Origin: Nostoc sp. FACHB-152
GTDB lineage: Bacteria > Cyanobacteriota > Cyanobacteriia > Cyanobacteriales > Nostocaceae
NCBI RefSeq assembly: GCF_014697475.1
Contig: NZ_JACJRV010000028.1
Coordinates: forward strand, 1-64,000
Length of the DNA: 64,000 nucleotides
Direction of reading: 5' to 3'
The position numbers and the translations under genes are program-made. Below are positions 1 to 57,024 of this stretch, one piece after another; the first letter of the stretch is position 1; each line of letters begins with the position of its first letter. Below the pieces are notes generated by a model that had not been told where the DNA came from, made no database searches, and saw only the letters and a program-made list of their open reading frames with translations.

Positions 1-76
1 TTAAATAGAGCTTATTGCGAATAAATGCTCTTTTTCTTTTACCACAAATTGCTACACTCTTTGTAAGATAAGCATT

Positions 77-781
77 CTAGACCATTTTGTCCCCCCGCAA
101 GCTATTATTTAGCTTTTCTCGAACATATTTTGATATCACATCTGCGGTGATAGCTCCAAACGCTTTGTTTTTTAGCCTTTCTACTAAGGTACTTGTAAAG
201 ACTCCGCTATATGATTCCTCTGAACTAAGAGAAGAAGCCAGAATACAATAGCTGAAACTAGGAGAAAGCCGACTTAAAGCCGAACGTAAAACTTCATATT
301 GAATAGCAAAACCACTATGGCAAGCGTCAATCCAAAGTACCAAATTATTTAAATGTTTGGCATCACCGATCAATTCGCTCAGGCGTTCAAAAGAGAGACC
401 ATATCTTTGTTGATCTAACTCTCCGTTCTTATTCAATAAAAGCTCTGAATCATACGTTCCTAAATATCCTTTGTACCTTTTTTGTTTCTTCGTATCCCCA
501 TCTAAAATCTGATAGCCATGACCAGAGAAATAAATTAAAACGTTTTTGTAGGCTGGCTGAGTCAACAACTCCTCTAGTTTTTGATCAAGAATTTCGCAGG
601 TGATAGGTTGTTTTGTTAACGTAAACTGAGGCAAGACCTTATATTGACTATGATTTAACTCCAGCCATTCCATAACATCTCTAACATCTTCCGTAGGGGT
701 CGCATCTCCTCCAAAATTCTTTAAGCGTTCATCTTGGTATTCGTCAATTCCGACTAAAAAGGCGACCCCTTTCTCTATCAT
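77..781 (-). CDS. Caspase-like peptidase (peptidase C14 / metacaspase p20 fold)
   Basis: This 234-residue protein is essentially one caspase-fold domain. The first strand carries VGIDEYQD (about 10-17), the catalytic histidine lies in YFSGHGY (His88) and the nucleophile in IDACHSG (Cys154). Metacaspases of this fold cleave after Arg or Lys; here the specificity is unknown. No signal peptide or membrane segment is seen, so it should be cytosolic. It lies 43 bp downstream of the hydrolase gene on the same strand, suggesting one operon. There is no recognition or effector domain beyond the peptidase, so its partner probably supplies activation. It sits inside the Tn7-like island and is best read as cargo. 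The family is confident; the biological role is inferred. Confidence 0.85.
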   Translation of the reverse strand: MIEKGVAFLVGIDEYQDERLKNFGGDATPTEDVRDVMEWLELNHSQYKVLPQFTLTKQPITCEILDQKLEELLTQPAYKNVLIYFSGHGYQILDGDTKKQKRYKGYLGTYDSELLLNKNGELDQQRYGLSFERLSELIGDAKHLNNLVLWIDACHSGFAIQYEVLRSALSRLSPSFSYCILASSLSSEESYSGVFTSTLVERLKNKAFGAITADVISKYVREKLNNSLRGDKMV

Positions 782-824
782 ATTTTAATCAACTCCTTAA
801 TTTTTGCCGCTCAACCCAACAAAA

Positions 825-2144
825 CTAAATTCCGATCACCGCGCTCCACACTGCATGAGCTACTTCCGGCTCATCGATGGAGCTATGCGCCCCTCCCAAA
901 CCCGCATCTGGAGAAATTTTGCAAATATATTTACTTGCCTCTAGGTTATAAATCTTACCTGGCTCAAAGTGATACACGCGATCGCAAGGCAACATCTCAA
1001 TATCACTGATTTCCAAGCCATCACCCTGAATTCCGAACGTTCCAATTCCCCCATACCTGGGTGGATCGCCAAAAGCTGGGTCGCTCATCACAATTCCACT
1101 AGCTAGGGGATATAGAGTGCCAATCGCACTATCATGCTCTGACCGAGTTGTGATGATGGGGCCTGCAACCTTGCCATCGGCAATAAACGGATAGAAGTAA
1201 CCCGGCTTACCTTTGGCAACTGGAATGTCTGCACAGTATGACCAGAGAGATAGCGCCCCTTGAATCAACGATAGAGAGTTAACTGGACGAGGTAAAACGC
1301 CTTTCCCCTTCAGACCAGCCAGGGAGGCTGAAACAACAATACACCCAAAACTGTGACCAATTAGATGAAATCGGGTCTGTTCACCCGCCGCCAGCTGGAG
1401 TTGGCTAAGAAACTGAAAGCCTCCACGCTCACCAAACTGACGTGCCCGTGCTTTCATCTTCCAATAAGACAGCGATCTCAGTGGCGAAAATATACGACTG
1501 AGAATAAAACCATCTGACCCATCAAATGGAACAGAGTCCTCATCAATCTCAGTTTCTTTGTAGATCGTTTCAGGATCAAAAGGTTCACGGTCATTACCGG
1601 GTGCTGCTGCTTCGCCCTCGCTACCAAGTGCTGCTTCCTGATTCAAAACTTGGTAAGCTTCAACCGTCTCACCCGATAGTCGCTCTGGAGCCACATCTTC
1701 TAGTGCCTCTGTGACAATAGTCCTTAAAGCATTCCGTGCGGGTTCGGTATCGGCAATTCGCTCTGCATATTCCGAGACGATTGACTCAACAACCGCTTCC
1801 TCTGTTTTAGCCGTTAAAGTTTCATTTCCCCAGGGCAAACTGGGCCAGTGTAACCCAATGAGTAAAGGCTTGAAGTTCGGTCGCACTTGTTTCAGCTTCT
1901 CAATGTCAGCCGTATTTGCTGCCATTGCCGTAATCCATTTTGTGTACTGATTCCGTGCCGCAGGGATATCTCCTAGCCAACCGTGGCTGATAAAGAACAC
2001 ATCAGTGATTGGTTCGTTTGCCAACACCTGAATCAGTGTCTGACTCATCTTCGTGCCATCCGCTTCGTCCCGTTCGTTACCTAAAGCATCAAAGTTAACC
2101 AGATAGTAATGTAGCGAGGTACCAGGGACTAATTCAAATGGCAT
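825..2144 (-). CDS. Alpha/beta hydrolase, likely cargo of the Tn7-like island
   Basis: The 439-residue protein has an alpha/beta-hydrolase layout: an oxyanion-type motif FISHGWLGD (about 51-59) and the nucleophile elbow LIGHSFG with Ser265. A charged, low-conservation insert of about 100 residues (110-215) separates the two. No signal peptide is visible. The substrate cannot be predicted; lipase, esterase and peptidase are all possible. It is the first gene of an operon with the caspase-like peptidase downstream. Pairing of a hydrolase with a caspase resembles bacterial conflict or programmed-death modules, but that is inference from the pairing and from the position on a transposon. Start: the ATG gives the complete first strand and no better upstream start is seen. 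Confidence 0.75.
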   Translation of the reverse strand: MPFELVPGTSLHYYLVNFDALGNERDEADGTKMSQTLIQVLANEPITDVFFISHGWLGDIPAARNQYTKWITAMAANTADIEKLKQVRPNFKPLLIGLHWPSLPWGNETLTAKTEEAVVESIVSEYAERIADTEPARNALRTIVTEALEDVAPERLSGETVEAYQVLNQEAALGSEGEAAAPGNDREPFDPETIYKETEIDEDSVPFDGSDGFILSRIFSPLRSLSYWKMKARARQFGERGGFQFLSQLQLAAGEQTRFHLIGHSFGCIVVSASLAGLKGKGVLPRPVNSLSLIQGALSLWSYCADIPVAKGKPGYFYPFIADGKVAGPIITTRSEHDSAIGTLYPLASGIVMSDPAFGDPPRYGGIGTFGIQGDGLEISDIEMLPCDRVYHFEPGKIYNLEASKYICKISPDAGLGGAHSSIDEPEVAHAVWSAVIGI

Positions 2145-2751
2145 ACTTATAAATTCCTCAAAATCAAATCATTAGCTTGAGTTGTGTACCCTACTTTTAC
2201 ACAAATAAATCATCATATCAACACCGTAAATATACGTACAATTTTATTTTTAACGTACAAAATTACCAGTATCTTTATTACTGCGCTGCGTTTATACCTT
2301 CTGGTGACTGGAGTCCAATGCAAAAGTAAATTGGCTTTGAGAGGTTAGGCGAGTGCCCCATGCTATAGGCATCAAATAGAGTGCGATCGCACTCAAGTGC
2401 AAAGCTGAACCAACAGCTTGAGTATCTAAGAGATGCGATCGCCTTCAAGAGATTTTTTATAGCTATAAGTAGACGGAAGCTAAGTTTGAGTTTGACCTCT
2501 TAAACCGCCTCACTAATTGACCTCTAGTTTTATGACTGCTTAGAAAGGTTTTTTAAATGATTTAAACGGAAATATATTGCCTGAAAAGCACACAGGACTA
2601 TGGTTTGAAAAATTCTACAACTTTTTTATATTTTTACAACAATTTTAGAGGAATAATTCGGTTCAACAATTCATAAAACTATTGAACAATAACCTCTAAG
2701 TAAGTACAGTTGTACCAAGTAAAAGTGCGATCGCTTCCAGAGGTTATTTTT
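2145..2751. other. Long intergenic stretch of the island
   Basis: AT-rich, with HIP1 sites and no intact gene. It holds direct repeats ACGTACAA at 2234-2241 and 2253-2260, a 34-codon open stretch at 2544-2645 lacking a start codon, and short inverted repeats (GTTCAA with TTGAAC, ACCTCT with AGAGGT) between about 2660 and 2745. It looks like eroded mobile DNA. Confidence 0.5.
2182..2204. promoter_or_regulatory. Candidate operator upstream of the hydrolase-caspase operon
   Basis: A perfect 7-bp inverted repeat, TTGTGTA and TACACAA, separated by 9 bp, lies 38 bp upstream of the hydrolase start codon. The spacing and position suit a dimeric repressor site, but which protein would bind is unknown. 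Confidence 0.3.
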
Positions 2752-2904
2752 ATGGTTAGGGGCAGAAGCGAATGGACATAAGCAAAATATAAGCGATACA
2801 TAAAAAAAGGTCGCGGTCGAGGAAGTGGTAAAGATTATAAACATTGGCTTAAAATCTAAGATTTTCCCTCAAAAGGCTGCGTGACAACAGTAATCAGGCT
2901 CTGA
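2752..2904 (+). pseudogene. Remnant of a separate tnsA gene (Tn7-like endonuclease subunit)
   Basis: The frame from the ATG at 2752 reads MVRGRSEWT, stop, AKYKRYIKKGRGRGSGKDY, KHWLKI, stop, DFPSKG, then a final stop at 2902-2904. This closely follows the N-terminus of stand-alone TnsA proteins, where Tn7 TnsA has RRIKEGRGQGHGKDY followed by a WLTVQEVPSSGR-type segment. The two internal TAA codons (2779-2781 and 2857-2859) fall where Glu and Gln codons would be expected, so single substitutions explain them. The nuclease core is gone. The neighbouring active transposase carries its own fused TnsA domain of a different subtype, so this is not a missing part of that gene but the trace of another Tn7-like element. 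Confidence 0.7.
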
Positions 2905-2956
2905 TAAGACTAATGCCAAACTTTTTTAACCATAAATCCTTATTTATACTAAAATT

Positions 2957-3946
2957 CTAAAACTTTAATTCCAGACTAAAATTCCTGAACAATATCTCGC
3001 CCAATTCCTGAAAATCTGACCCAAACAACTGGGATATAGTAATCTTCGCCTTCTCGCACACAGGAATAATCAACTTCACCAAATGATAAGGTTGACTTTG
3101 ATTTGTTGTTGAGGCTATCCTCAACGATTCCATGATTCCCCCTAAATCTCCCAATAGCTTCAAATCCTTTCCAATTGCTTGTTCAAACACGAACCACATT
3201 AATTGTAATTTTCGGGTTAGTTCGATTGGGATAGGTTTATATACTAATTGGGGAGTAAGTGCAATTAATTCGCTAATTCCTTGAATATTAACTCGATATT
3301 TCTCTATTTCTTCTTGGCCTTTAATTTCCTGTCCTAACCACCCGTAACAACTAGAACAAAATCCCGCAGGTGAAAACTTAGTCATTACAGGTAAACGTGA
3401 ACCACAATCAGGACATTCTTGGATTAATCGCTGTTTGTGAATCAAACAAAATTCTACATCCTTAAATGACCATAATAACGGTTCATAGATAGTTTTGTTC
3501 TCCTGCTTCCACTCCTCCCAACAACAAGGACACCAAGCGCGATAGTTGCGAAATAAGCCCTTGTCATAAATCATTCCTTTCCAGCTTAAAAGGGTCAAAA
3601 AGCGTAAATCCTGACGCATTGTTAACTCTTCTAAGACAGTGACTAACTTTGCTGTCATTTCTCGCATTCCGTTGATAGTCGGTTTAGCGTCGCTATTTCC
3701 CAATAGGTGACTCAGATTTTTTGCCAATAGCTCAGATTTATCCTCATCTTTGAGGATAAGTGGCGCAATTTCTCCCATAACGAGCTTTTGAGTGGTTAAA
3801 CAATGCGCCTGCGCCAAACGATGAAGATAGCTACTAAGACTTTCTGCGTAGGGAGTTCCCACCGCCACAGGTTCAAGAGAAAATAACCGACTTCGTTGCG
3901 GTATTTCTGGAGATTTTAGGTTCCAATGTTCTAAGTAAATAGTCAT
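2957..3946 (-). CDS. tniQ: TniQ-family transposition targeting protein (short form)
   Basis: The 329-residue protein opens with the TniQ signature (LEPVAVGTPYAESLSSYLHR, about 25-44) and has a zinc-binding region with Cys139-x2-Cys142, Cys167/His170, Cys178-x2-Cys181 and Cys197-x2-Cys200. TniQ proteins link target recognition to the AAA+ protein TnsC. In type I CRISPR-associated transposons the short TniQ binds Cascade while a longer TnsD-type paralogue recognises the chromosomal site; this protein matches the short class. It is read leftwards, 50 bp after the Xre regulator, probably as one transcript. An AGAGGT ribosome site precedes the ATG. No Cascade genes are visible, so its present partner is unknown. 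Confidence 0.88.
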   Translation of the reverse strand: MTIYLEHWNLKSPEIPQRSRLFSLEPVAVGTPYAESLSSYLHRLAQAHCLTTQKLVMGEIAPLILKDEDKSELLAKNLSHLLGNSDAKPTINGMREMTAKLVTVLEELTMRQDLRFLTLLSWKGMIYDKGLFRNYRAWCPCCWEEWKQENKTIYEPLLWSFKDVEFCLIHKQRLIQECPDCGSRLPVMTKFSPAGFCSSCYGWLGQEIKGQEEIEKYRVNIQGISELIALTPQLVYKPIPIELTRKLQLMWFVFEQAIGKDLKLLGDLGGIMESLRIASTTNQSQPYHLVKLIIPVCEKAKITISQLFGSDFQELGEILFRNFSLELKF

Positions 3947-3996
3947 ACCTCTTGGATTAACCTAAACGCTGGCACTTTAGTTGTAAAAACCAAATT

Positions 3997-4293
3997 TCAA
4001 GAATTAGTTTCTAATTCACTCTTAACCTCAATGCCGTAATTAACAAAGAGATCGGAGACAGATATCTCCAAAGCTGCGGCTAACTTAACAATATTTTTTA
4101 ACGAAGGGTTACGCTCTCCGTTTTCGATACCTGAGATGTAGTTGCGATGAAGCCCTGACTTTTCAGCCAGTTCTTCTTGGGATAAATCTAGCTCTCGCCT
4201 TCGCCGCCTAATTGCTTTGCCAAAGCGGTACTCAATACTGAAGTGTTTCTGTGTCACAAAACAATACTGAACCAGTATCGTCATTAAATCCAT
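3997..4293 (-). CDS. Xre-type helix-turn-helix regulator of the transposon
   Basis: The 98-residue protein contains one HTH_3/Xre domain (about 28-85: RRRRRELDLSQEELAEKSGL, then HRNYISGIENGERNPSL). This fold binds short palindromes and usually represses its own promoter. The gene is divergent from tnsAB with a 119-bp shared control region holding two inverted repeats, and is followed by tniQ. Similar small regulators between the divergent arms of cyanobacterial Tn7-like elements control transposition or cas genes; that role is inferred here. The first 20 or so residues before the HTH are unusual, and an internal start cannot be excluded. Confidence 0.85.
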   Translation of the reverse strand: MDLMTILVQYCFVTQKHFSIEYRFGKAIRRRRRELDLSQEELAEKSGLHRNYISGIENGERNPSLKNIVKLAAALEISVSDLFVNYGIEVKSELETNS

Positions 4294-4314
4294 CTACTAT
4301 CAGTGGATTTTTGC

Positions 4315-4375
4315 ACACTATAAGTGTTATAAAGTTAAGTATCATGGCATCAGATAAGCAAGTTGCTAACTTTAT
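4315..4375. promoter_or_regulatory. Divergent control region with two inverted repeats between xre and tnsAB
   Basis: A palindrome ACACT-ATA-AGTGT lies at 4315-4327. A second perfect 9-bp inverted repeat has its arms at 4329-4337 (ATAAAGTTA) and 4367-4375 (TAACTTTAT). Both sit between the divergent start codons and are natural candidates for Xre operators controlling both arms. Confidence 0.5.
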
Positions 4376-4412
4376 GGTCTTATTTTCATAGAGAAATAAA
4401 ATCAAGCGCAAA

Positions 4413-7127
4413 GTGCTTACTAAGGACTATATGAAAGAGCAATTGGAACAATGGGTTGCTCGCCTTCAAATATCCGAGGCAGGGCAAAAAATTATTGAGA
4501 AAGTTTGCTCATCTGAGCCATCCCGTCGCGTAGGTGGCGGTAGTAAGAATGTTTCGGGACGCTACCCTAGCCGCAAGATGGGAGTCACAATTCAATTTGA
4601 GTCTCATCGGGTTGAACTGCCAATTATCTATCAGTTAGAACACGATGACGATGTTCTAGAATTCTACGATCAACCACCGCAAATTAAACTTGACTATCAA
4701 GCAAGTAACGGACGTAGATTAGGCGTTTTACACACCCCAGATTTCTTTGTCATCCGAACCAATTCGGCTGGTTGGGAAGAGTGTAAAACTGAGCAGGATT
4801 TAAAAAAACTAGCCCAGAAAAACCCCAATCGTTACTTTTACTCTCAAGAAGATAATCAATGGCATTGCCCGCCTGGGGAAGTCTATGCTGACCAATTTGG
4901 GCTTTATTACCGCATTCGTTCAGATCGGGAAATCAATTGGGTTGTGCAACGTAATCTGCAATTTTTAGAAGATTATTATCGCTCAGAATTTCTAGTAGTG
5001 GAAGAAGCGATCGCTCAATCATTACTTGCAACTGTGTCATCTCAACCAGGAATAACTTTAGCAGAAGTACTCAATCGGTCAACAGAAGCTAAATCTGACG
5101 ATATCTACACCTTAATTGCTCAAGAGCGAATCTATTTTGATTTAAATGCTACACCACTTGCGGAACCAGAAAGATGCCTAATCTTTCGTGACGAACAAAC
5201 TGCTAGTGCTTATAGGTTAATGGTTGAGCAGCCAAGTGTAAATCTTCCGGCTATCTCTCCTGTAATCAATATTGCCACTGGAACGCTTGTTAGTTGGGAC
5301 GGCAAAGGTTTAAATATCATTCATGTTGGAGAAACAGAGGTTATACTTGGCGCAGAAAATAATCAGTTAATTGAACTCAAAAAAGTTGTATTTGAGAATC
5401 TGGTTCGTCAAGGAAAAATCACCAGTCTCCAAACACCAGAAAAAACAGCTATTAGCACAGAATCTTGGCAGCGATTTTATCAAGCTAGTCCAGAAGACCA
5501 AGCAGAAGCCCTTGAACGCTACAAAGCTATCGAACCTTACTTAAACGGACATCCCCCAGAAAACAAAACAATACCAGCCCGTACCATTCGTGACTGGAAA
5601 GCTAAATATCTAACTGCAATTCAAAAATACGGTTGCGGCTACATTGGGCTTTTGTCCCATCGCAGTGTCAAAGGTAATCGTCAGCGCAAACTGCCCGAAG
5701 ACACCTTAGCAATTATGGAGAAATTTATTTTAGAAGACTATGAAACGCTTAAACAAAAAAGAATGTGGGAGGTTTACGGGGCTTTAGTTCGAGCTTGCGA
5801 ACAATCTGGTGTAATTACTCCGAGTTACAAAGCATTTACTAAAGAAGTAAAATGCCGTACTGGTTACGAACAGACTAAAAAACGCCAAGGTCGCCGTGCC
5901 GCGTATCAACATGAATCCTTCTATTGGGAACTTACCCAAACTACCCCAAGACACGGCGATCGCCCCTTTGAAATTGGACATATCGACCATACCCAGTTAG
6001 ATGTAGAGCTAGTTTGCTCTCGTACAGGTCGCAATCTTGGCAGACCTTGGGCAACATTTCTTGTAGACACTTACTCACGGCGATTGCTGGCAGTTTACCT
6101 AACGTTTGACTCACCCTCATATCGTTCTTGCTTAATGGTGCTAAGAATTTGTGTCAAGCGTCACGGTAGACTTCCCCAAATTGTAGTCGTAGATAACGGT
6201 ACTGAATTTCATAGCGTTTACTTTGAAACACTACTAGCTACTTTTGAATGTACAAAAAAGCAAAGACCGCCAGCTAAGGCTCGTTTTGGGTCGGTCTGCG
6301 AACGTCTATTTGGAACTTCAAACACTCAATTTGTCCATAACTTACTAGGTAATACGCAAATAACTCGTAATGTGCGCCAAGTCACCAAGTCCGTTAACCC
6401 TAAAAATCAAGCTGTATGGACACTTGGTTTACTTTATGAATATCTTTGTGCTTGGGCTTACGAAGTTTATGATACAGACGAACATCCAGCACTATTCCAA
6501 AGTCCGAGGGATGCGTTTGCAGCGGGTATGGCGATTGGTGGCAGTCGGGTTCACCGCATGATTCCTTACGATGAAAACTTCCAGATTCTTACGCTACCTA
6601 CCACCTCAGAGGGAAAAGCAAAAGTTCAAGTTGGACGCGGCGTAAAAATTAACTACATCTACTACTGGTCTAATAGTTTCCGCGATCCCCAAATTGAAAA
6701 TACCTCTGTGCAGATAAGATATGACCCGTTTAATATTGGTATCGCTTACGCCTTTGTTCGAGGACAGTGGGTACAGTGTACCTCTCAATATTATGTAGAA
6801 CTCCAAGGTCGTTCAGAAAAAGAACTGAAGTTAGCTAGTACCGAGTTACGCAAACGCTCCTCAAATCATGCACAACAATCTCAAGTTTCAGCTAAGAATC
6901 TAGCAGAATTTTTAGCATCGGTAGAAGCTCAAGAAGCTCTATTAGAACAGCGTTCCTATGATACAGAAGCTAAGGAAGTCTTCAGGGTAATTGAGGGCAA
7001 AAAAGCGACAACAAGCCGTAACGAACAACCAAAACTTATTCAAGTTCCTTTTGAAAATACTGAGACTCAAGTAGCTAAATATGAAGCGATCGTCCCAGAA
7101 ACACTTGTAGTATATGAGGACTTTTAA
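4413..7127 (+). CDS. tnsAB: TnsAB: fused TnsA endonuclease and TnsB DDE transposase
   Basis: The 904-residue protein joins two Tn7 activities. Residues 45-200 form a TnsA-like endonuclease domain with Glu76, Asp110 (HTPDFF) and Glu123-Cys-Lys125 (WEECKTE), the E...D...ExK nuclease pattern. Helix-turn-helix regions then lead to an RNase H-fold integrase core with Asp525 (HIDHT), Asp594 (VVDNGTEF) and Glu630 (SVCERLFG), a DDE triad with the usual 35-residue last gap, and a C-terminal beta domain. Both nuclease sites look intact, predicting double-strand cut-and-paste movement. Such fusions are known from type I-B2 and I-D CRISPR-associated transposons and relatives. The GTG at 4413 is used; the ATG at 4431 with AAGGA four bases upstream is an equally good start. 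tnsC follows after 2 bp. Confidence 0.93.
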   Translation: MLTKDYMKEQLEQWVARLQISEAGQKIIEKVCSSEPSRRVGGGSKNVSGRYPSRKMGVTIQFESHRVELPIIYQLEHDDDVLEFYDQPPQIKLDYQASNGRRLGVLHTPDFFVIRTNSAGWEECKTEQDLKKLAQKNPNRYFYSQEDNQWHCPPGEVYADQFGLYYRIRSDREINWVVQRNLQFLEDYYRSEFLVVEEAIAQSLLATVSSQPGITLAEVLNRSTEAKSDDIYTLIAQERIYFDLNATPLAEPERCLIFRDEQTASAYRLMVEQPSVNLPAISPVINIATGTLVSWDGKGLNIIHVGETEVILGAENNQLIELKKVVFENLVRQGKITSLQTPEKTAISTESWQRFYQASPEDQAEALERYKAIEPYLNGHPPENKTIPARTIRDWKAKYLTAIQKYGCGYIGLLSHRSVKGNRQRKLPEDTLAIMEKFILEDYETLKQKRMWEVYGALVRACEQSGVITPSYKAFTKEVKCRTGYEQTKKRQGRRAAYQHESFYWELTQTTPRHGDRPFEIGHIDHTQLDVELVCSRTGRNLGRPWATFLVDTYSRRLLAVYLTFDSPSYRSCLMVLRICVKRHGRLPQIVVVDNGTEFHSVYFETLLATFECTKKQRPPAKARFGSVCERLFGTSNTQFVHNLLGNTQITRNVRQVTKSVNPKNQAVWTLGLLYEYLCAWAYEVYDTDEHPALFQSPRDAFAAGMAIGGSRVHRMIPYDENFQILTLPTTSEGKAKVQVGRGVKINYIYYWSNSFRDPQIENTSVQIRYDPFNIGIAYAFVRGQWVQCTSQYYVELQGRSEKELKLASTELRKRSSNHAQQSQVSAKNLAEFLASVEAQEALLEQRSYDTEAKEVFRVIEGKKATTSRNEQPKLIQVPFENTETQVAKYEAIVPETLVVYEDF

Positions 7128-7129
7128 TT

Positions 7130-8281
7130 ATGACAATACTTGATGCATTTCCTCTTGAACTCCTCACGCAACCAGCTACAGAAAGGCTTGCTTACTTTAA
7201 GGAGAAAACCGTAGCGCATCCTCGGCTTCAAGAAGTCAATGAAATTCTCATGCGAACAATTGCTGAACCCGCAGGAGCCTCATTTATCTTTGTTTATGGC
7301 CCTAGCGGTATCGGTAAAACAACTTTGCGACTCCGTGTTGAGCAGAAATTAACAGAACTAGCATTAGCTAAACTGGAAAGCGATCGCGGTCGTGTTCCTG
7401 CTGTTGGTATTGAAGCTATGGCCCCAGAATCGAGATACTTCAACTGGAAAGAATACTACACACGCGCCTTAATCGCCTTAGAAGAACCCTTAATAGATTA
7501 CAAGTTTGATTACGGTGTGCGTGGTATCTCTCGCGATAATTTTGGCAAAATTAATGTTGAGTCGAAAGTAGTTGCACCTGCTCTACGCAGAGCTTTAGAA
7601 AATGCTCTCATCCATCGTCATCCAGACGTATTTTTTGTAGATGAAGCACAACATTTTGGTAAGGTAGCAAGCGGATACAAGCTACAAGATCAATTAGACT
7701 GTCTCAAATCTTTAGCAAATATGACAGGCATCTTGCACTGTCTATTAGGAACATACGAACTACTTACATTCCGTAATTTGAGCGGTCAACTCTCACGTCG
7801 TAGTGTTGATATTCATTTCCGCCGTTATTGTGCTGACAATCCAGAGGATGTACAGGCTTTTAAAAGTGTATTGTTAACTTTCCAACAGCATATGCCACTA
7901 GCAGAAACTCCAGATTTAGTTAGCCATTGGGAATATTTTTATGAACGTACTTTAGGATGTGTTGGCATACTGAAAGATTGGCTGAGGCGCGTTCTTAAAG
8001 ATGCCCTGGCTCGAGAAGCAACAACAATCACTGTTAAAGACTTACAAAAATGTGAGTTGTCGGTTGCTCAGTGTCAGAAAATGTTCAAAGACATTCAAGA
8101 AGGCGAACGACAATTATCTGAAACAGAACAAGATGTTCAAGACTTACGCTCTGCATTAGGACTTGGCGAAAAACCAATTGTGCTACCCGAAGAAACCCCA
8201 AAAACTAGTCGTCCGCCAGGAAAGGTTGGCAAACGCAAACCTAAAAGAGATCCCATTGGAGTGCCGCAAGATGTTAACTAA
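7130..8281 (+). CDS. tnsC: TnsC AAA+ ATPase, transposition regulator
   Basis: The 383-residue protein carries Walker A GPSGIGKT (57-64) and Walker B VFFVDEAQ (Asp171, Glu172), the AAA+ arrangement of TnsC/TniB ATPases that form filaments on target DNA and pass the target signal from TniQ/TnsD to the transposase. The C-terminal 60 residues are charged and proline/lysine-rich and may be the transposase-contacting tail. It starts 2 bp after tnsAB and overlaps the start of the downstream tniQ/tnsD, so the three form one translationally coupled operon. The ATPase residues look intact. Confidence 0.93.
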   Translation: MTILDAFPLELLTQPATERLAYFKEKTVAHPRLQEVNEILMRTIAEPAGASFIFVYGPSGIGKTTLRLRVEQKLTELALAKLESDRGRVPAVGIEAMAPESRYFNWKEYYTRALIALEEPLIDYKFDYGVRGISRDNFGKINVESKVVAPALRRALENALIHRHPDVFFVDEAQHFGKVASGYKLQDQLDCLKSLANMTGILHCLLGTYELLTFRNLSGQLSRRSVDIHFRRYCADNPEDVQAFKSVLLTFQQHMPLAETPDLVSHWEYFYERTLGCVGILKDWLRRVLKDALAREATTITVKDLQKCELSVAQCQKMFKDIQEGERQLSETEQDVQDLRSALGLGEKPIVLPEETPKTSRPPGKVGKRKPKRDPIGVPQDVN

Positions 8282-9668
8282 TGAACTAACAACATACGAA
8301 TATTGGGACTTAAAAAAGGTTGCTATTCCATCTCGGAGTCATTTGTATCAATTAGAGCCTGTTGGTCTAAGAACACCAATGGTAGAAAGCCTTACAGGAT
8401 ATATAGAAAGATTAGCTGAGGCTCATTGTGTACCTCCAGAGGTATTAATTTCACGAACAATTACACCATTGCTAAAACAAATATTTTTGAAATCTCGAAC
8501 TAGTAGAGATTTACGTTCTCTTTTCGACCGTGCCACAGCTATAAATGGTACAGGAGATATAGCAATAGATTTAGTACAAGCACTTCAAAACCTAACGCTT
8601 ATAGAAGATTTGCACTTGCTGACCCTGCTATTTTGGGCTGAAGTCATTCCCACGCGAAATTTGTTTCGTACCCAAAGTGCTTGGTGTGCTTTATGTTATG
8701 AAGAATGGCGTTTGACTAAGCAAGTAATTTATAAACCATTAATTTGGAATATAAATTCAGTAAAAGCATGTCATTTACACAAAATATATCTGTGTTTCCA
8801 ATGTCCTCACTGTCAGCAGGAATTTCCGCTACTAAGTTGGCGATCGCAACCAGGTTACTGTTCCAAGTGTGGTGGTTGGCTTGGTATGAAACTTGCTGCC
8901 AAGTCATCCTCAGAATATATGGATTGCTTAACTGTCTCTCAAGAAGAATTACAATGGCAAACTTGGATAGTAGAAGTTATTGGAGAATTAATTTCTTCTA
9001 CCCTATCTTTTAATTTTCCACCAGCAAAAGAAGAAATTGCCAAATCTTTGAGTCTGGTCATAGATATAGTAACTGATGGAAATGTAGCAGAGTTTGCCCG
9101 TTTGATGGAAATCCCAAAAAATACTTTATGGATGTGGCAAACAGGTAAAGCTTTACCAGTGCTTGATATGCTTCTCAAAATTTGTTATTGCTTAGAAATA
9201 TCCCTGCTAGATTTGCTAAAACCAGAACAACTTGCTGCTAAATCTTTTAAGAAAATCTCACACAAAACTATTCGGCGATCGGCCGCACAGAGAGTATCTC
9301 CAAAACTTTTCGAGGCTAATCAAGTACAAGATGCTTTGTTAGCAATCCTTGAAAGCAACAACGAGCCACCACCGACAATGGAAGAAGTAGCTACAAGCCT
9401 GGGATATAATAGGCGAACAATTTTCAGGCATTTTCCAGATTTATGCCGTGCTATTTCTGCCAAATACCTTAGTTATGGTAAAGCATGTCACAAAGAAAAG
9501 ATACAGCAGTCTTGCAGAGAAGTTAAGCAGATTGTGCTTAAGTTGCATCATCAAGGAGAATACCCTTCAGAAGCTCGTGTGTCTGAAATAATGGCTCATC
9601 CTGGATATCTCCGTTACAAACAGGTTCGTGCTGCTTTAAATGAAACACGGCGTGAAATTGGAGTGTAA
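8271..9668 (+). CDS. tnsD: Long TniQ/TnsD-type target-selection protein, probably recognising tRNA-Val
   Basis: From the ATG at 8271 the protein has 465 residues; a start at 8163 is possible but would overlap tnsC by 119 bp, against 11 bp for the chosen one. The TniQ domain has its zinc ligands at 139, 142, 167, 170, 178, 181, 197 and 200, the same positions as in the short TniQ of this element. The unique C-terminal half has helix-turn-helix-like segments, for example MEEVATSLGYNRRTIFRHF (370-388), as expected for a sequence-specific TnsD. The gene ends 152 bp before the transposon terminus next to tRNA-Val, so this protein most likely directs insertion there. Function is by family and context. 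Confidence 0.85.
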   Translation: MLTNELTTYEYWDLKKVAIPSRSHLYQLEPVGLRTPMVESLTGYIERLAEAHCVPPEVLISRTITPLLKQIFLKSRTSRDLRSLFDRATAINGTGDIAIDLVQALQNLTLIEDLHLLTLLFWAEVIPTRNLFRTQSAWCALCYEEWRLTKQVIYKPLIWNINSVKACHLHKIYLCFQCPHCQQEFPLLSWRSQPGYCSKCGGWLGMKLAAKSSSEYMDCLTVSQEELQWQTWIVEVIGELISSTLSFNFPPAKEEIAKSLSLVIDIVTDGNVAEFARLMEIPKNTLWMWQTGKALPVLDMLLKICYCLEISLLDLLKPEQLAAKSFKKISHKTIRRSAAQRVSPKLFEANQVQDALLAILESNNEPPPTMEEVATSLGYNRRTIFRHFPDLCRAISAKYLSYGKACHKEKIQQSCREVKQIVLKLHHQGEYPSEARVSEIMAHPGYLRYKQVRAALNETRREIGV

Positions 9669-9732
9669 AGCTATTAAACTTAAAAAGGTAGACTTAGTTA
9701 GCCTCTTTCTCTACAGATGGAAAATTGGAAGC

Positions 9733-9786
9733 ATAACTTTGCCGCCCTTTATTGGAACCATAAGCTTGCCATTGCGGCAAAGTTAT
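9733..9786. repeat. Subterminal inverted repeat, possible TnsB-binding sites
   Basis: A perfect 13-bp inverted repeat has arms ATAACTTTGCCGC (9733-9745) and GCGGCAAAGTTAT (9774-9786). A weaker copy (CCATAAGCTTGCC) lies between at 9759-9771. Tn7-like ends carry several transposase-binding repeats within about 150 bp of the tip, so these are candidates. A hairpin terminator for the tnsABCD operon is the alternative. Confidence 0.4.
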
Positions 9787-9810
9787 GGGTAAAGTCACAA
9801 AAATAATTAG

Positions 9811-9820
9811 TCACTGTACA
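9811..9820. mobile_element. Right terminus of the Tn7-like element (TGTACA tip)
   Basis: Read into the element, the end starts TGTACAGTGACTAATTA, with a second GTGAC 16 bp further in. The TGT...ACA tips and TGTACAGTGAC wording match ends of cyanobacterial Tn7-like transposons. The next five bases outside (9821-9825, AATAA) would be one copy of the 5-bp target duplication. The tRNA-Val 3' end begins 10 bp outside the tip. The opposite end is not in this window. Confidence 0.65.
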
Positions 9821-9830
9821 AATAAACAAT

Positions 9831-9903
<73 letters not shown>

Positions 9904-34895: not shown

Positions 34896-35252
34896 AGATT
34901 TTTTCTCTTTATAGACAAGGCCATTCAGTGCATCTGTTTCCCATCATAGGCTGAACGTGCAGCCACAGGAAAGTCAAACTATAAAGCTTTTTTATAACTG
35001 TCCAAAAATTCCGCACTTTTACCTGGACAAAACTCAGGATGATGCTACAATAGCAAAGCCAGTATCAAATCGGCGTGCTTGTTCACTCAGATTTTAAGAT
35101 ACCTGTCTAATGTGAATTGCTAAGAAAAAAGCAGCGATCGCATAACCTAGACAAAATTTCTGAAATCTAGTTGCCAAAAATGCACAATTGATGTTGGATA
35201 GATAAGGAGGTATTTGCTGCCTCCAAAAAATAACTGACTCCTAAGTAAATCT
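34896..35252. other. Divergent region between ndhL and tRNA-Leu
   Basis: Promoters for both directions are expected. No further gene was recognised. An AAGGAGG-like stretch near 35205 precedes no usable frame. Confidence 0.45.
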
Positions 35253-35608
35253 GGGGGTGTGGCGGAATGGCAGACGCTACGGACTTAGCTAACTGAGCCT
35301 TGATCGAGAAATCTTTCAAGTGTCAGCTCTCAAACTCAGGGAAACCTAAATCTGTTTCCAGACAAGGCAATCCTGAGCCAAGCCCAAAAATTTTAGATCT
35401 TGGACTCCATTTAAATCCAAAATCAAAAATTAAAGGGAAGGTGCAGAGACTCGACGGGAGCTACCCTAACGTAAAGTCGAGGGTAAAGGGAGAGTCCAAT
35501 TCTCAAAGCCCAAGGTAGATAAAACTACTAGGCAGTAGTGAAAGCTGCAAGAGAATGAAAATCCGTTGACCTTAAACGGTCGTGAGGGTTCAAGTCCCTC
35601 CACCCCCA
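35253..35608 (+). tRNA. trnL-UAA: tRNA-Leu(UAA) interrupted by a group I intron
   Basis: Exon 1 (35253-35286) gives GGGGGTG acceptor and D arm and ends in GGACTT; exon 2 (35558-35608) begins AAAATCCG and ends CACCCCCA. Joining restores the anticodon loop CTTAAAA with anticodon TAA. The split after the first anticodon base is the position conserved in cyanobacteria and plastids. CCA is not encoded. Confidence 0.96.
35287..35557 (+). ncRNA. Self-splicing group I intron of tRNA-Leu(UAA)
   Basis: A 271-nt intron ending in G, as group I introns do. Conserved core parts are visible: the Q element AATCCTGAGCCAAGCC (35369-35384), R element GGTGCAGAGACTCGACGGGA (35441-35460) and S element AAAGTCGAGGGTA (35472-35484). 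It has no endonuclease gene; a 72-codon frame across it is a shadow. Between Q and R lies an AT-rich expansion of heptamer-like units (ATCCAAA, ATCAAAA), the usual variable P6b stem. Confidence 0.93.
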
Positions 35609-35762
35609 TTAAAAAACAAAAATTAGCATAGTCTAGATTGTGACTTTACCTATTGTATAGTGACTAGTTGTTCATCGCATTAATTCTGCTGGGTGAAACT
35701 TGGTTCTATTCCTTATCTTTTTCTTTCCCTTTCGCGTACTTTGCGCCCTTTGCGGTTCGTTA

Positions 35763-56696: not shown

Positions 56697-56827
56697 AAAA
56701 GGGCATCTAATTATTTAGATGCCCGTCATGTAGGAAACCCCAAAAGGGTTGTCCTTACACCTTCCCAACTATCAGCAACATTGGTGAATTTGTGATGAGC
56801 AAATTCACCAAACTCACAGTCACAAAT
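56697..56827 (-). ncRNA. Candidate structured small RNA with intrinsic terminator
   Basis: On the reverse strand four stems follow one another: TCACATTTGTGA, then a perfect 10-bp stem GGTGAATTTG/CAAATTCACC (56783-56809), then AACCC/GGGTT extended by outer pairs (56730-56757), then the terminator GGGCATCTA/TAGATGCCC (56701-56724) ended by TTTT. A possible -10 box (TACTAT, 56839-56834) lies upstream. No family was recognised. It could also be a structured 3' untranslated region of the gene ending at 57029. Confidence 0.5.
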
Positions 56828-57024
56828 GTGAATATAGTAATCTTATTAACTAGAAAACCTGAATGCCTCCAGTGTAACCACTGAAAAATATCCAGGTCAT
56901 AGTAGGGAGGAGGCAATAGGCAGCAGAGCATTGGAAATAGAGATTAAGTCAGCCTTTAAAACTTGATATTTATAGAAGTAAGTGTTTTTAACTCTTGGCA
57001 GAAATATAAAATAAGAGACAACTG

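Follow-up and report, generated by a model that had tools for sequence, protein, structure and literature searches.

Which lineage of Tn7-like transposon lies beside the tRNA-Val(GAC) gene of Nostoc sp. FACHB-152, what directs it to that gene, and does the genome hold the genes for its RNA-guided transposition? These questions were addressed with a stretch of 64,000 nucleotides (hereafter referred to as the window), corresponding to bases 1-64000 of its contig, position 1 being the start of the contig, in an 8.6 Mb genome assembled into 190 contigs. The explanation that we favor, with a probability of about 0.8, is that the genes at 2957-9668 belong to a Tn7-like transposon of the type I-B2 lineage of CRISPR (clustered regularly interspaced short palindromic repeats)-associated transposons (CASTs), that this element is cut by the contig start, that a tnsD cassette sets the tRNA gene used for homing, and that the RNA-guided arm has probably been lost.

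The transposition genes are genuine and intact. A short TniQ protein of 329 amino acids (aa) is encoded on the minus strand at 2957..3946 (Pfam TniQ, 1e-21; TniQ of Protein Data Bank (PDB) entry 8fcu, E = 6.6e-201). The other three genes lie on the plus strand: tnsAB, a TnsA-TnsB fusion, at 4413..7127 (Pfam TnsA N, TnsA C, rve and Mu-C; PDB 9bw1); tnsC, encoding an AAA+ regulator of 383 aa, at 7130..8281 (Pfam AAA_22 and TniB; TnsC of PDB 8fcu, E = 1.4e-234); and tnsD, encoding a long TniQ-family homing selector of 465 aa and of the tRNA-Val(GAC) class, at 8271..9668 (Pfam TniQ, 2.6e-16; TnsD of PDB 8v32, E = 1.8e-165). The start of tnsAB may be the ATG at 4431, the PDB match beginning only at residue 7, and the ATG at 8271, which overlaps tnsC, is the most likely start of tnsD. 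The motifs that we take to be the TnsA-type D..ECK (from 4734) and the D/D/E (5976, 6186 and 6288) of TnsAB, and the Walker A and B motifs of TnsC (7298 and 7628), are all intact. The tRNA-Val(GAC) gene, the putative homing target, is located at 9830..9903 on the minus strand (ARAGORN, Rfam tRNA). An earlier reading of this DNA (the original prediction) had named these four genes, the intact motifs and the tRNA, and open reading frames (ORFs), Pfam and ARAGORN bore it out. It had overlooked the contig start with a repeat at position 1, the location of the second end outside the window, and an XRE-type helix-turn-helix regulator gene at 3997..4293 (minus strand, 98 aa, divergent from tnsAB; Pfam HTH_3, 2.4e-20), matched by tblastn in 10 of 15 related loci with 89-97% identity.

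Among solved structures, the four transposition proteins all find their best matches in a single set of entries (8fcu, 8v32, 9bw1 and others), which we take to be those of PmcCAST. Over the part compared, the TnsD chain of this set does not differ from the TnsD of the locus of PmcCAST (Tn7744), a type I-B2 CAST from Nostoc sp. 'Peltigera membranacea cyanobiont' 210A (hereafter referred to as L034), presumably the strain from which PmcCAST was described. The window and L034 have the same gene order and terminus, with 92.4% identity for TnsAB, 90.3% for TnsC, 89.4% for TniQ and 93.8% for the XRE regulator. Like other I-B2 cores, that of the window combines a fused TnsAB having both active sites with TnsC, a short TniQ and a long TnsD, and its terminus is 30 nt from the tRNA gene, versus 31 nt in L034. 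Membership of the fused-TnsAB I-B2 (PmcCAST) lineage, as originally proposed, is strongly supported for the transposition core by these comparisons of sequence. The two loci nevertheless differ in TnsD (54% identity), in the adjoining tRNA, which is tRNA-Val(TAC) in L034, and in the Cascade I-B genes that lie beside the left end of L034, of which neither Cas8 nor Cas7 was found in the FACHB-152 genome.

The I-B2 elements located at tRNA-Val(GAC), in Nostoc desertorum CM1-VF14 (L036/L127), Nostoc carneum NIES-2107 (L040/L128) and genome G013 (L182), share the TnsD class (about 85%) and the tRNA with the window, and in L036 and L040 a relic resembling a type V-K end also lies between tRNA and terminus. 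In contrast to FACHB-152, the genomes of this group have Cas8, the Cas8 frame of the L040 genome containing one TAG; the TnsD of L040 matched in pieces only. More distant are the compact elements of the Leu class in Anabaena subtropica FACHB-260 (L037) and Atlanticothrix silvestris CENA357 (L039), which have a fused TnsAB, TnsC, TnsD and the identical terminal 24-mer, 30 nt from tRNA-Leu(UAA), but measure about 9.2-9.3 kb from end to end, with 76% TnsAB identity to the window; no separate TniQ or XRE gene was matched within the stretches of these two loci that were compared.

Two other CAST types were considered. Type I-D elements (CyCAST and McCAST) also have a TniQ/TnsD pair, and a fused TnsAB is ascribed to them in a passage of PMC11406308. 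In part of PMC10293859, the homing site of CyCAST is placed 30-33 nt downstream of a tRNA gene, and type I-D elements are given an I-D Cascade and TnsAB and TnsC proteins about 50% identical to those of type I-B2. The 90-92% core identity to the PmcCAST locus rules out membership of type I-D, I-D Cas genes not having been searched for. Likeness to type V-K (ShCAST) is confined to the relic end at 9801-9820, and the end of the element itself is different. To our knowledge, type V-K elements have a separate TnsB and Cas12k, without a TnsA fusion; membership of this type is ruled out by the fused TnsAB, Cas12k not having been searched for.

Whether the element is a complete CAST, as the original prediction implied, depends on its Cascade genes. 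In L034 (L126), L127 and L128, cas6-cas8-cas7-cas5 lie beside the left ends. No match to an I-B2 Cas8 query was found in the FACHB-152 assembly, which is rated 100% complete, and the same query matched 12 of 16 other genomes (seven over the whole query, the rest partially); the remaining four were G025, G056, G067 and G068, of which G025 and G068 are apparently one record. An I-B2 Cas7 query likewise gave no match in this genome, with matches in all four of the others. The type I-B Cascade of a complete I-B2 CAST is thus unmatched genome-wide for both Cas8 and Cas7, and RNA-guided transposition is unsupported for this reason. The CRISPR repeat of L127 does not occur in the window; its exact 25-mer was present in just two of 257 loci, so the repeat varies. 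The RNA-guided arm has probably been lost in this genome, with TniQ remaining. In PmcCAST, as described in PMC11406308, the counterpart of this short TniQ contacts Cascade.

The left end of the element is absent from the window. Elsewhere in the genome, the 20-base terminus has a single other exact match, at position 36424 of contig C169 (C169:36424), which is of the left-end type and has about 71 bp of left-end homology. Five looser matches, with two or three mismatches, were found, of which that on contig C140 was the one inspected. The 5-bp flanks of the window right end and of C169:36424 differ, and no 20-mer is common to window positions 1-3000 and the compared parts of C169. No cas6 match was obtained behind C169:36424, Cas5 and Cas6 having been compared with selected stretches only. 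Window positions 1-101 correspond to a repeat with 27 locations in the genome, at least 16 of them contig ends, and probably form the margin of a high-copy insertion sequence adjoining a caspase-like gene. A join of the window contig to the left-end candidate through the contig-end sequence was rejected because these first 101 bases are so widely repeated.

It could be argued that the element is a complete I-B2 CAST, with its Cascade genes and CRISPR array in unassembled sequence. The intact TniQ, 89% conserved, would fit such a structure, as would the cas operons at the left ends of the relatives L127 and L128, which use the same tRNA, and a contig that begins inside the element at a highly repeated sequence. 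We nevertheless consider it unlikely, given that queries that work in related genomes recovered neither Cas8 nor Cas7 from an assembly rated complete, and that the left-end homology at C169:36424 has no cas6 match behind it.

The favored explanation assigns the choice of tRNA to tnsD, which appears to behave as an exchangeable homing cassette because identity along the element forms a mosaic and the type of TnsD matches the tRNA. In sliding comparisons with five relatives, identity was 84-98% across window positions 3151-8150 (tniQ-tnsAB-tnsC), 78-86% in the outer bin at 2901-3150 and 79-88% in the border bin at 8151-8400. Across the tnsD bins, at 8401-9650, it was 42-70% for the four elements at other tRNAs versus 87-94% for L036, at the same tRNA, and in the 50 bp from 9750 it was back at 96-98%. 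These profiles place the putative cassette, consisting of tnsD and the right-end spacer, at 8300..9745 (plus strand), with approximate borders. In a comparison of ten rows, the TnsD proteins formed classes with at least 84% identity within a class and no more than 56% between classes, accompanying tRNA-Val(GAC), tRNA-Val(TAC), tRNA-Ala(GGC) and tRNA-Leu(UAA). TnsD sequence was recognizable at 19 of 28 right ends located at a tRNA, the other nine having none; for 18 of these 19, the best-matching TnsD class corresponded to the tRNA, and the figure is 14 of 15 once the four reference rows are set aside. The position of the window element and the correspondence between TnsD and tRNA in its relatives support the homing to tRNA-Val that had been predicted for it.

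These tallies depend on several assignments. Eight termini called tRNA-Ser(aga) by ARAGORN with introns were counted as Leu(UAA), as all eight share the 3' exon of L037, called Leu(taa) by ARAGORN; L032, L039 and L166 have the Rfam group I intron, as does L037, and the other five labels rest on the exon. Three labels in the TnsD tree were assigned by hand. The class comparisons exclude L044 (63% TnsAB identity) and L041, which has no right end, and L035, the right end of which has one changed base, is absent from the tallies of termini and classes. The TnsD of row L030 was taken from L166, on another contig of the same genome without TnsC or TnsAB, and the two may not form one element. Sequence was covered for 30 of 80 genomes in the search for ends beside tRNA-Val(GAC) and for 30 loci in the family-wide scan for the terminus.

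Individual elements combine cores and selectors of different affinities. L036 has 96.3% TnsAB but 56.3% TnsD identity to L034, versus 92.7% and 85.3%, respectively, to the window. The Leu-class TnsD of L032 is 84% identical to that of L037 and 89% identical to that of L039, with TnsAB identities of only 75.5% and 76.6%, a contrast that could hardly be the product of vertical descent. In approximately unbiased (AU) tests, a single clade of Val(GAC) elements was rejected by the core DNA (p-AU = 1.9e-7) and by the protein core (p = 0.002); the core of L036 groups with the Val(TAC) elements (100/100) and its TnsD with the Val(GAC) class. The TnsD tree, with 36 rows, 30 of them labeled with a tRNA, required seven label changes, versus a mean of 17.4 for shuffled labels, and none of 200 shuffles gave a value as low. 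Homologous recombination would be the route of exchange suggested by the mosaic.

The TnsD classes might instead be old vertical lineages that diverged rapidly under selection for new targets, without any exchange of cassettes. Within a class, TnsD does evolve faster than TnsAB (85% versus 93% between the window and L036), and the TnsD tree joins the two Val classes as sister groups (95/92). This scenario is, however, improbable: it is contradicted by the split affinities of L036 and by those of L032 relative to L037 and L039, and the drop in identity at tnsD is sharply bordered, with recovery at the right end.

The right end of the element (9732..9799, minus strand) contains repeated CATAACTTTGCCGC motifs, which are probable TnsB sites, an inverted repeat (9732-9745/9774-9787) and a terminus common to its relatives. 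The end conserved in the lineage, TGTGACTTTACCCATAACTTTGCC, reaches as far as 9799, leaving 30 nt to the 3' end of tRNA-Val(GAC), and not the 10 bp of the terminus as previously placed. The terminal 24-mer TGTGACTTTACCCATAACTTTGCC was found, with up to three mismatches, in all 13 source genomes of related loci (reversed control, 0), and an exact match to its first 17 bases occurred in 68 of the 217 genomes scanned from the family, with no match for the control. A tRNA gene adjoins 27 of the 56 distinct termini examined, every one at 29-32 nt; in a further tally, all 28 termini with a tRNA no more than 45 nt away were separated from it by 29-32 nt.

A relic of a type V-K-like transposon end lies outside the element, at 9801..9820 (minus strand). 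The sequence TGTACAGTGACTAAT, at 9806-9820, is identical over all 15 nt to the 3' tail of a primer for the right end of the type V-K transposon ShCAST, given in part of PMC9527255. At position 9820 lies the outermost base of TGTACAGTGACTAATTATTT, which begins with the 15 bases of this primer tail. Of the 29 relatives examined, out of 79 searched, 16 have V-K-like ends (no more than three mismatches in 16) beside tRNA-Val(GAC), and 14 of these 16 had no I-B2 end match within four mismatches. Inspection by eye nevertheless showed at this location a variant of the I-B2 end lacking one base in L145, and related ends in L135, L150 and L152. For L163 and L164, no transposase or Cas12k was recognized in the translated DNA behind the relics, no family search having been made. 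The end sequence of these relics suggests their attribution to type V-K, and the insertion of the I-B2 element was probably about 20 nt into a pre-existing end of this type. The recurrence of the same DNA beside tRNA-Val without transposon genes, which would have counted against the original prediction, was observed for the 20 nt at 9801-9820 only.

That the terminus instead lies at 9820, the 21 nt at 9800-9820 forming part of the element, is most improbable: TGTACA is a terminal form of Tn7-like elements and also lies between element and tRNA in L036 and L040, both points in its favor, but at other tRNAs the elements of this lineage end at TGTGAC without the 21 nt, V-K-type ends occur beside tRNA-Val(GAC) without the I-B2 pattern in 14 of 29 relatives, and the TGTGAC boundary gives exact 5-bp target duplications in three related elements.

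Several observations weigh against the explanation that we favor. The left end lies outside the window, and C169:36424, the candidate for it, has a different flank and is on another contig, so the wholeness of the element is unsupported. With an assembly of 190 contigs, the Cas genes could be missing by chance. With TGTGAC as the boundary, exact 5-bp target duplications were present in just three of the 14 related elements compared, which had both ends on one contig; three others (G060, G066 and G169) shared four bases with a one-base shift and eight were unmatched, in a comparison that left out G486 and elements of 53 bp. The correspondence between TnsD and tRNA is broken by L212, which lies at tRNA-Val(GAC) and has a 30-residue scrap of Leu-class TnsD. 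Several of the elements are near-identical, so the 15 right ends do not count as independent, and four of the 15 retain just 35-139 TnsD residues in the longest match. The core trees are weakly resolved (one starred branch each), and neither the Val(TAC) nor the Leu elements were rejected as a single clade by AU testing (DNA p = 0.33 and 0.13; protein p = 0.38 and 0.18, respectively). Finally, a TnsD clade with mixed targets among distant elements (L193, L195, L196 and L204) implies that the TnsD-tRNA code is not universal.

In the transposon that we envisage, by homology to PmcCAST, TnsD would recognize the tRNA-Val(GAC) gene and then recruit TnsC, which would position the fused cut-and-paste transposase TnsAB, such that the right end is inserted some 30 nt downstream from the tRNA, in this case about 20 nt within the older V-K-type end. 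The tnsD gene and right-end spacer would be the cassette that varies among otherwise near-identical elements and determines the tRNA gene used. From its sequence, the element may be active at present. A broader proposal, which we regard as evenly balanced between true and false, is that I-B2 is a common chassis in which tnsD, with at least four tRNA-specific forms, is exchanged through homologous recombination in the interval from tnsC to the right end, some carriers, this one among them, having shed the RNA-guided arm and relying on homing.

Two further genes lie between the contig start and tniQ, both on the minus strand: a caspase-like (peptidase C14) gene at 77..781 (Pfam, 4.4e-07) and an ORF of 439 aa at 825..2144 without a Pfam match at E = 0.01. 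From their position, both are probable cargo of the element. Among plasmid records, 43 matched, all with 60-80% identity, and none reached 80% query coverage.

The window contains a second tRNA with transposon ends beside it. The tRNA-Leu(UAA) gene at 35252..35609 (plus strand), detected by ARAGORN with introns, has a group I intron (Rfam, 35277-35508), and this tRNA accompanies another TnsD class. A relic end of the I-B2 lineage, TGTGACTTTACC, was read in the sequence at 35639..35650 (plus strand), 29 nt past the tRNA, and directly behind it is a V-K-like end relic with two mismatches of 15 (35654..35668, plus strand). Four loose V-K-like matches were observed in the window, with 2.16 expected by chance, and the match at 35654 counts only through its place beside the tRNA; with this reserve, a second tRNA also has both kinds of end, one behind the other. 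Elsewhere in the genome, V-K-like ends were present at C57:30208 and at C114:96643, the latter 23 nt from tRNA-Leu(CAA).

Other elements were encountered during the analysis. C169:17012-35782 (L027, L083) is a second Tn7-like element of this genome, 18.8 kb in length, flanked on either side by the 5 bp TTAAA. Its TnsA (186 aa) and TnsB (723 aa) are encoded by separate, slightly overlapping frames, unlike the fused homologue in the window, and it contains an apparent type I restriction-modification set (translations read, without a family search) and two TniQ/TnsD-like proteins. Two more TnsAB homologues of this genome, at C135:15903-18452 and C170:27285-29858, have 48% and 45% identity, respectively, to the window TnsAB. 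Mini-elements of 53 bp, consisting of two I-B2-type termini back to back, were found at G072 C7:76575-76627 (L099), G081 C1:3821383-3821435 (L156/L229), G416 C2:4620088-4620140 (L256), G069 C1:6596883-6596935 and G066 C81:804-856, and three of the five stand 30-31 nt from tRNA-Val(GAC); they could be scars of internal deletions or tiny mobile elements. An NsiR9 small RNA (Rfam RF02594) was detected in the window at 56701-56833, barely over the gathering score.

For the fused-TnsAB subfamily, TnsD proteins for different tRNA genes and a promiscuous exchange of TniQ partners are mentioned in part of PMC11406308, which cites Hsieh and Peters. The principle of target-selector exchange in this subfamily is therefore already known, and the present series is a sharp, testable case of it. 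No description of four tRNA classes on one I-B2 core was found in the literature searched, and Hsieh and Peters could contain one. With the terminus at 9799, the boundary of the element is corrected, and tRNA-Val(GAC) emerges as a landing site of two kinds of transposon. If I-B2 is indeed a common chassis, one transposase lineage colonizes several tRNA genes (Val-GAC, Val-UAC, Ala-GGC and Leu-UAA), and the mostly unmatched flanks would mark hybrids, the left and right ends of which come from different insertions. The elements form a natural series in which a near-identical transposase is combined with differing homing selectors, such that simple exchanges would test a TnsD-to-tRNA code, for the reading of which there are solved structures of proteins closely related to TnsAB, TnsC and TnsD.

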